Shown in pieces: positions 47,257-48,872 of a stretch of 64,000 nt of DNA. A program made the position numbers and the translations under genes. Every line of letters begins with the position of its first letter. The first letter of the stretch is position 1. The notes below the pieces were generated by a model that saw nothing but the letters and a program-made list of their open reading frames with translations, did not search any database and was not told the DNA's origin. The stretch comes from Nesterenkonia sp. Act20 (GTDB lineage: Bacteria; Actinomycetota; Actinomycetes; Actinomycetales; Micrococcaceae), in contig NZ_JADPQH010000001.1 of assembly GCF_019173455.1 (NCBI RefSeq), forward strand, positions 1 to 64,000, given 5' to 3'.

Positions 47257-47276
47257 ATTCGAAACTATGTTCGAAT
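47257..47276. promoter_or_regulatory. LexA-like SOS box
   Basis: ATTCGAAACTATGTTCGAAT: 7-bp perfect arms. The core TCGAAA-CTAT-GTTCGA (47259-47274) differs by one base from the actinobacterial LexA consensus TCGAAC-N4-GTTCGA. It ends 6 bases before the ATG of the radical SAM gene, where a bound repressor would block the promoter. Confidence 0.72.
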
Positions 47277-47282
47277 AGCTGC

Positions 47283-48872
47283 ATGAGGTGGCAGGGACAG
47301 GCAGTACAGGAGAGCGACGGCGCCGCGCTCATTCCGCTCAAGGGGCTGATGCGCTCGGTGCGAACCCCCGAGTTCGAGGGAGTGACCTTCCATGAGGTGG
47401 CCGCGAAGACCGCGCTGAACAAGGTCCCAGGGCAGTCGAACATGCCCTTCTCCTGGACGGTGAACCCCACCCGCGGGTGCCTGCACCAGTGTGTCTACTG
47501 CCTGAGTCCCGAGACGCTGATCCTGATGGCTAACGGGAGGCAGAAGATGCTTCGCGACGTCACGGTCGGCGACCGGGTGGTCGGAACCCAGTCGGATGGC
47601 AAATATCGGCGCTTCGTCGAGTCCGAGGTTCAGGCAAAATGGGGAACGGAGAAACCCGCTTTCCGGGTGACGCTGCGCGACGGTACCGAGCTCGTCGCAA
47701 GCGGGGACCATCGGTTCCTGACTGATCGGGGGTGGAAGTACGTCATGCCCCCGGAGTCTTCGTCTGAGGGAAGCAGTCAGCGTCCCCATCTGACGGTGAA
47801 CAACAGGATGATGGGCTTCGGTCTCGGCATGGCTCCCGAGGCCTATGAAGCACCCCCCGAAACGGATCAGCAGGTATCCGTTCTCGGGACGGAGGTCTCC
47901 GCCTCGCGTGAGCTCGACATTCTGAATATCGAACCGCTCGGTGACGCCGAAAAACTGATCGACATCACCACCAGTACGGGCGACTTCATCGCCAATGGAG
48001 TGGTCAGTCACAACTGCTTCGCGCGGAAGACGCATGAGTATCTGGACCTCGATTCCGGCCGGGACTTCGACACGCAGGTCATCGTGAAGACCAATGTGGC
48101 CGAAGTGCTGCGTGCCGAGCTGAATCGCCCCTCGTGGAAGCGTGAGCACGTGGCGCTGGGCACCAATACCGATCCCTATCAGCGCGCCGAGGGCAGATAT
48201 CAGCTGATGCCCGGGATCATCAGGGCGCTGGCCGATTCCGGGACTCCGTTCTCGATCCTCACCAAGGGGCCCCTGCTCAAGCGGGATCTGCCGCTGCTGC
48301 AGGAGGCCGCCCAGCAGGTGCCGGTGTCCGTCGCGGTCTCGCTGGCGGTGTTGGATCCGGAGCTGCAGCAGAAGGTGGAGCCGGGCACCCCGGATCCGCG
48401 GGCTCGGCTCAACCTCATCCGATCCATCACCGATGCTGGGCTGGACTGTTCCGTCTTGGCGATGCCGATCCTGCCCTGGCTCACCGACGGCGACGAGCGA
48501 ATCGATGCTCTCCATGCCGCGCTGGCTGAAGCAGGAGCCAGCTACGTGACCACCGGCGCGCTGCATCTTCGCCCGGGGGCTCGGGAGTGGTTCATGCAGT
48601 GGCTGGCGCGGGAGTACCCCGGCCTGGTGGGCAAATACCGTCGCATCTACGGGGGTGGCTCGTATGCCTCCAAGGAGTACCGGCACTGGCTTGCGGACTC
48701 GGCACGCGCGGCGCGGCGTCGCCACAGGTTCGACAAGCCCACGGATCTGATGTGGCGCGAGCGCAATGATCCCGACTCCCCGCTGTCTGAGTCGCAAATG
48801 TCTGACTCGCCCCTCAGCGGTCAGGGCCTCCTGGACTCCGCCTCCGTTCCTGCACAACCGGCGCTGTTCTAA
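47283..48872 (+). CDS. Rv2578c-family radical SAM protein, interrupted by an intein
   Basis: 529 aa precursor, 357 aa after splicing. The N-extein (1-72) ends NPTRGCLHQCVY and the C-extein starts CFARKTHEYLDLDSG; joined, they give C-x3-C-x2-C (Cys66, Cys70, Cys245), the [4Fe-4S] site of a radical SAM/SplB-like enzyme. The rest of the barrel follows (VALGTNTDPYQRAEGRYQL, FSILTKGPLLKRDL, VSLAVLDPELQQ). Function of the host family is unknown, though the DNA photolyase-like SplB resemblance and the SOS box suggest DNA-damage response. Members with and without intein are known in actinobacteria. Confidence 0.93.
   Translation: MRWQGQAVQESDGAALIPLKGLMRSVRTPEFEGVTFHEVAAKTALNKVPGQSNMPFSWTVNPTRGCLHQCVYCLSPETLILMANGRQKMLRDVTVGDRVVGTQSDGKYRRFVESEVQAKWGTEKPAFRVTLRDGTELVASGDHRFLTDRGWKYVMPPESSSEGSSQRPHLTVNNRMMGFGLGMAPEAYEAPPETDQQVSVLGTEVSASRELDILNIEPLGDAEKLIDITTSTGDFIANGVVSHNCFARKTHEYLDLDSGRDFDTQVIVKTNVAEVLRAELNRPSWKREHVALGTNTDPYQRAEGRYQLMPGIIRALADSGTPFSILTKGPLLKRDLPLLQEAAQQVPVSVAVSLAVLDPELQQKVEPGTPDPRARLNLIRSITDAGLDCSVLAMPILPWLTDGDERIDALHAALAEAGASYVTTGALHLRPGAREWFMQWLAREYPGLVGKYRRIYGGGSYASKEYRHWLADSARAARRRHRFDKPTDLMWRERNDPDSPLSESQMSDSPLSGQGLLDSASVPAQPALF
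47499..48014 (+). other. mini-intein within the radical SAM gene
   Basis: 172 aa, residues 73-244 of the precursor, in frame. Block A starts with Cys73 (CLSPETLIL); block B is GTELVASGDHRFLTDRGW with His143; block F is EKLIDITTSTGDFIANGVV; block G is VSHN with His243-Asn244, followed by Cys245 as the +1 nucleophile. All splicing residues are therefore present. The stretch between blocks B and F is too short for a LAGLIDADG homing endonuclease, and none is seen. Codon use is visibly less GC-rich than in the exteins. Confidence 0.92.

Follow-up and report, generated by a model that had tools for sequence, protein, structure and literature searches.

An endonuclease-free mini-intein at the cluster motif of an Rv2578c-family radical-SAM gene in Nesterenkonia: probably constitutive splicing with a possible redox liability

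Introduction

Whether inteins are parasites only, or may also act as regulators for their hosts, is an old question, and the locus described here makes it directly testable. Two things coincide in it: the first cysteine of an intein (Cys1) occupies the exact place of a ligand of the iron-sulfur cluster, and the host gene is preceded by an SOS-type box. Moreover, natural alleles of the same site, empty, full-length and endonuclease-free, can be compared within one genus, and a second genus has a mini-intein in every genome examined. The locus lies in a stretch of 64,000 nucleotides from Nesterenkonia sp. Act20, called the window below. A sequence-only reading of the window had suggested that splicing of this intein could work as an oxidation or damage switch, and we ask here whether the distribution, the history and the surroundings of the intein speak for such a use or for an ordinary element that splices itself out.

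Results

The precursor gene and its intein

The features of the locus needed for the argument are the following, all on the plus strand.

47259..47274, plus strand: LexA/SOS-type box TCGAAACTATGTTCGA, 8 bases upstream of the ATG, with 11 of 12 consensus bases
47283..48872, plus strand: radical-SAM precursor gene, 529 aa, stop included
47283..47498, plus strand: N-extein, residues 1-72, with Cys66 (47478-47480) and Cys70 (47490-47492, position -3)
47499..48014, plus strand: mini-intein, 172 aa, Cys73 (Cys1) to Asn244, delimited by family models and by the empty sites of 13 relatives
47700..47711, plus strand: block B, S-G-D-H, last residue His143 (alignment A1)
47868..47873, plus strand: approximate place (intein residues 124/125, protein alignment) of the endonuclease domain of full-length relatives, missing here
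47961..47963, plus strand: block F Asp227 (intein Asp155), invariant in A1 and present in 47/47 loci
48009..48014, plus strand: His243-Asn244, the end of the intein
48015..48872, plus strand: C-extein, stop included, beginning with Cys245 (+1), predicted to be the third cluster cysteine once the enzyme is spliced

The two exteins together make 357 residues. The frame belongs to the NCBIfam family NF038136, named 'intein-containing Rv2578c family radical SAM protein', with 754 bits against a cut-off of 700, and it also reaches 513 bits against NF038135 (cut-off 430). Since NCBIfam names the frame in this way, the intein allele of the Rv2578c-family gene is already catalogued, in line with the statement of the sequence-only reading that intein-bearing Rv2578c-type proteins are known; the intein is ordinary in kind and the window adds one more case. 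In the openly licensed literature we found no title or abstract opening describing the present intein. A chance or mis-set frame is ruled out by the intact frame, the splice residues and the family scores. The neighbouring genes, according to Pfam, encode a queuine tRNA-ribosyltransferase, a PF03601 protein, a gamma-glutamyltranspeptidase and an ABM-domain protein, none of which points to a special system. Genes of the Rv2578c family are used by a second kind of mobile element as well, the Streptomyces phage Samy, whose integration site is such a radical-SAM gene according to excerpts of PMC12924846.

Taken alone, the intein scores 29.6 bits against TIGR01445 (intein_Nterm, cut-off 24.5) and is the sole match to this model found in its genome, while the Pfam intein models match below their cut-offs only (PF14890, 26.6 versus 35.8) and solved mini-inteins are weakly similar in sequence (best 4o1r, E 0.00017). 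The residues of a class 1 intein, Cys73, His143, His243-Asn244 and Cys245 at +1, are all in place, as had been noted from the letters, with the block B Thr of T-x-x-H replaced by Ser; intein Ser68 and His71 do not vary among the 16 inteins aligned in A1. In a set of 47 distinct intein loci, Cys1, the penultimate His and the block F Asp occur in 47/47 and the block B pattern in 45/47 (L140 and L142 are without it). Of these counts, those for Cys1 and the block F Asp alone are free of the search pattern, which had fixed Cys at -7, -3 and +1 and limited the last two intein residues to [HFYQNS][NQ], leaving the penultimate His nearly free. A phylum search gave 28 new matches, 18 of them with loci; 15 were readable by the pattern, and all 15 again have Cys1.

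The absence of a homing endonuclease was likewise confirmed: NCBIfam and Pfam profile searches reported no endonuclease family in the intein, and both LAGLIDADG motifs of the full-length relatives are missing from it in the protein alignment, from which the boundary of the loss can be placed approximately (the DNA alignment, with large end gaps, was set aside). By its sequence the window intein, lacking the domain that makes a LAGLIDADG homing intein, is a derivative of such an element and not a homing intein itself.

The cluster motif and the cysteine pair

In one point the sequence-only reading was mistaken: it had held that the cysteine motif of the cluster exists only after splicing. Two residues separate Cys70 from intein Cys73, and for this reason the complete radical-SAM motif C66-x3-C70-x2-C73, whose third cysteine is Cys1 of the intein, is already present in the precursor before splicing; splicing is predicted to exchange Cys73 for Cys245 in this position. 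It is presumably the working enzyme around the motif, unlike the motif, that arises through splicing.

The same spacing places Cys70 at position -3, and thus the locus has the pair of Cys at -3 and Cys1 known from the MoaA intein of Pyrococcus abyssi, an intein whose host we also take to be a radical-SAM enzyme. In that intein a disulfide between the two cysteines controls splicing, as excerpts of PMC10663303 and PMC3922620 describe it, and a mycobacterial intein is blocked by zinc bound to the nucleophile cysteine (PMC7360933, in part) and by peroxide via a disulfide (PMC6195587, in part). By analogy, a redox or metal effect on the window intein would be plausible chemistry. The oxidation idea of the sequence-only reading thereby gains a precedent, but the pair which would carry it, Cys70 and Cys73, was not the one that it had named.

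Empty, full-length and mini alleles

Across 30 Nesterenkonia genomes the site is empty in 13 and holds a LAGLIDADG intein of 348-352 aa in six and a mini-intein of 158-188 aa in nine, the window included; in one further genome the gene is broken and its site empty, and one gave no match. In the 13 empty-site relatives the junction is uninterrupted and reads CxYC[FY][AS]R, which supports the placement of the intein, in coordinates, frame and residues, right at the third cluster cysteine, as first proposed. The comparison across Micrococcaceae, which the sequence-only reading had suggested, covered 395 genomes, the genus included, and its strong matches to the site were the 15 genus inteins, one full-length intein from outside the genus, that of G036, and the genome G347. 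The locus of the latter (L094) keeps a 64-residue remnant of the intein, with pieces of the radical-SAM gene in different frames and an SOS-type box of 10/12.

Beyond the family, 33/394 genomes of the class matched at E 1e-10 or better (32 of these matches were read, G669 being left out), and 30/296 genomes of a phylum sample; the census loci are best matches to the queries and not a random draw. In the actinobacterial genus g82, which belongs to another family, a 152-residue mini-intein is present in 12/12 genomes (L135-L141, L143-L145, L148 and L157), and in the family of g82 a mini-intein occurs in 17 of the 21 gene-bearing genomes (22 searched). For g82 this is long retention without an endonuclease.

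A full-length relative, with 54% identity to the window over the best stretch, lies on a contig titled Deltaproteobacteria (L062:3001-4032). It sits at the same cysteine motif in a radical-SAM gene of the PA0069 family (373 bits, cut-off 360), and on the intein tree it joins an actinobacterial row (87/83); either a cross-phylum transfer or a mis-binned contig would account for it.

History and selection

The kinship of the mini-intein to full-length inteins is clear from the intein tree, where the window pairs with the mini-intein L011 (100/97) and next with the full-length L013 (99/94), while the full-length L006 has a group of four other mini-inteins (100/96) as its sister (99/93). The window intein most likely lost the endonuclease of its full-length relatives. 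L003 keeps a remnant of the C-terminal part of the endonuclease, and L023 and L028 have gaps of their own; judged from these sequences, at least three and probably five losses took place in the genus, if the domain was never regained. The extein tree is a quick one that leaves 23/66 inner branches open; L062 stands on a very long branch, and its place in this tree is not interpreted.

The dN distances of intein and extein agree (Spearman 0.76 over 105 pairs, with 0/2000 permutations as high), and the intein/extein dS ratio has a median of 1.54 and a minimum of 0.98 (82/105 pairs usable). Because the dN distances agree and the dS of the intein roughly matches or exceeds that of the extein, we suggest vertical descent with losses and no recent homing. 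The comparison shows no trace of recent homing within the genus, with the reservation that homing accompanied by conversion of the flanks would escape it. Nor was a close carrier found which would suggest that a phage or plasmid brought the intein in recently: phage records gave 12 matches, all below 60% identity, in genes that are unannotated or have a terminase or helicase annotation, viral contigs gave 4 matches at 27-40% identity only, and no plasmid record spans 80% of the protein among the matches listed (20 of 37).

Both intein and extein are under purifying selection. Between the window and L011 simple pairwise counts of dN and dS give a dN/dS of 0.15 in the intein and 0.02 in the extein, and the highest pairwise intein value among the 15 genus inteins is 0.42. 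Pairwise dN/dS is blind to the difference between a need for splicing and a need for regulation.

The SOS-type box

The box in front of the gene was scored against the consensus of the SOS box. This consensus agrees with the boxes printed in PMC9380542. A scan of the window found six matches with up to 2 mismatches where 2.45 were expected, and six were reached in 3/100 shuffles; the box in the window alone is therefore weak evidence and the case rests on its conserved position in relatives. At the same place 24/26 genus loci scored reach 11-12 of 12, while control stretches do so at 11 or more in 0/415 and at 10 or more in 4/415. Over all loci scored, a score of 10 or more is found in 29/29 mini-intein, 13/17 full-length and 39/46 intein-free loci, a count that omits L124, L021 and L025 and takes the broken gene of G015 as empty; L021 and L025 have an 11/12 box somewhere in the locus.

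The same genome has boxes at the 5' ends of recA (11/12) and uvrA (12/12), two of the five that reach 11 or 12 among ten places picked by eye from 79 palindromes. The other three stand beside a DUF3253 gene, a riboflavin-synthesis gene and one further gene. The DUF3253 gene (L110, G000:C1:478990-479408), with its 11/12 box just upstream, is a candidate SOS gene in its own right. The riboflavin-synthesis gene (L112, G000:C1 near 714893; DHBP synthase and lumazine-binding domains) has a 12/12 box beside it, so that even a good box is by itself no proof of an SOS gene.

Rv2578c itself is, as we assume, a member of the mycobacterial LexA regulon. In Streptomyces venezuelae the LexA-bound gene vnz_31145 is induced about 20-fold by mitomycin C (PMC9380542, in part); it is likened here to the window gene as a radical-SAM gene and not as a proven Rv2578c-family member. 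A reconstructed core SOS regulon of Gram-positive bacteria names a radical-SAM protein too, according to excerpts of PMC7739468. With an 11/12 box at its promoter the window gene has the mark of a LexA/SOS regulon member, and from the sequences a link to DNA damage at the level of transcription, through putative LexA control, is supported; the enzyme may act in DNA repair. On splicing the box is uninformative, because intein-free copies carry it too.

Discussion

From our analysis we consider it probable that the window holds an autocatalytic class 1-type mini-intein, vertically inherited, which has lost its endonuclease and most likely splices constitutively. Its ancestor would be a LAGLIDADG homing intein that occupied the cluster motif in radical-SAM genes of the Rv2578c family in Actinomycetota; within the genus the endonuclease would have been lost and inheritance would now be vertical. 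After translation the intein would excise itself, joining Tyr72 to Cys245, which would replace Cys73 as cluster cysteine, and in the reducing cytoplasm this would most likely proceed constitutively. A liability may be built in, since a disulfide between Cys70 (-3) and Cys73 (Cys1) is conceivable as in the archaeal MoaA, and oxidation would then probably slow splicing, with or without selection for such use. The intein would be kept because the strongly constrained host enzyme is presumably useless unless spliced and exact loss of the insert is rare. Against this it can be said that retention in 12/12 genomes of g82 is longer than a dying parasite needs, which may leave room for a useful role.

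Such a role could be that of a selected redox switch, where oxidation would join Cys70 and Cys73 and block the first acyl shift, so that the oxygen-labile enzyme stays safe as a precursor until the cell is reduced again. This reading, drawn by analogy, is possible but in our opinion rather unlikely. The cysteine pair at -3/1 shared with the Pyrococcus intein (excerpts of PMC10663303 and PMC3922620), the presence of Cys1 in the 47 census loci and the 15 further loci of the phylum, and fixation in g82 speak for it; but the intein is absent from 13/28 genus genomes whose gene is intact and readable, and loci with and without the intein have equally good SOS-type boxes. Besides, the pair arises without selection, because the cysteine at -3 is imposed by the host motif and inteins usually have Cys1 as their nucleophile. 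Somewhat akin is gating by a metal or a cluster, in which Cys66, Cys70 and Cys73 would bind iron-sulfur, iron or zinc and so tie up Cys1. The complete C-x3-C-x2-C of the precursor, with Cys1 as its third cysteine, would suit this, as would the zinc block of the mycobacterial nucleophile cysteine (PMC7360933, in part); the same look is, however, expected of any Cys1 intein at this site, and we regard such gating as improbable. Any redox or metal effect would follow from the insertion site alone, so that selection is not needed for it. Both ideas can be brought together in a precursor acting as its own sensor of iron-sulfur, metal or redox state, where a cluster or metal on C66/C70/C73, or a C70-C73 disulfide, occupies the nucleophile, and redox or cluster state times the maturation of an SOS-type enzyme. 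It would explain the endonuclease-free retention in 12/12 g82 genomes, and we give it a small chance.

That DNA damage itself triggers splicing, in the manner of the RadA intein of Pyrococcus horikoshii (excerpts of PMC10663303), we find hardly credible: the SOS-type box upstream of the gene invites the thought, yet it acts on transcription and is also found in 39/46 intein-free loci, and the intein is without a visible DNA-binding or damage-sensing part. Thus, of the damage switch first proposed, the transcriptional side stands, with a conserved box and a LexA-regulon radical-SAM precedent, and the splicing side gains no support. Just as remote is a non-splicing intein in a dead gene. Decay does occur among relatives, with the 64-residue remnant and broken frames of G347 and the broken intein-free gene of G015; here the frame is intact, the catalytic residues are complete, and dN/dS is about 0.02 in the extein and 0.15 in the intein.

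The constitutively splicing mini-intein that we favour can be compared with several known systems. NF038136 is closest, with host family and intein identical to those of the window protein and no essential difference, except that the model is longer (574 positions versus 529 aa). In the halobacterial inteins, according to excerpts of PMC4071816, large, mini and empty states of one site also occur among related species; those are archaea, whereas the present case concerns one actinobacterial genus and a radical-SAM site. DnaBi1 of Mycobacterium smegmatis shares a catalytic cysteine open to disulfide formation and to zinc (PMC6195587 and PMC7360933, both in part), but it is a class 3 intein of a helicase host, with Cys118 as nucleophile and its disulfide partner Cys48 within the intein. 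The MoaA intein of Pyrococcus abyssi, as far as the excerpts describe it, has an oxygen-labile host enzyme, a Cys at -3 and Cys1 in common with the window intein; host family and domain of life differ, and disulfide control has been tested in MoaA while the window intein is known from its sequence.
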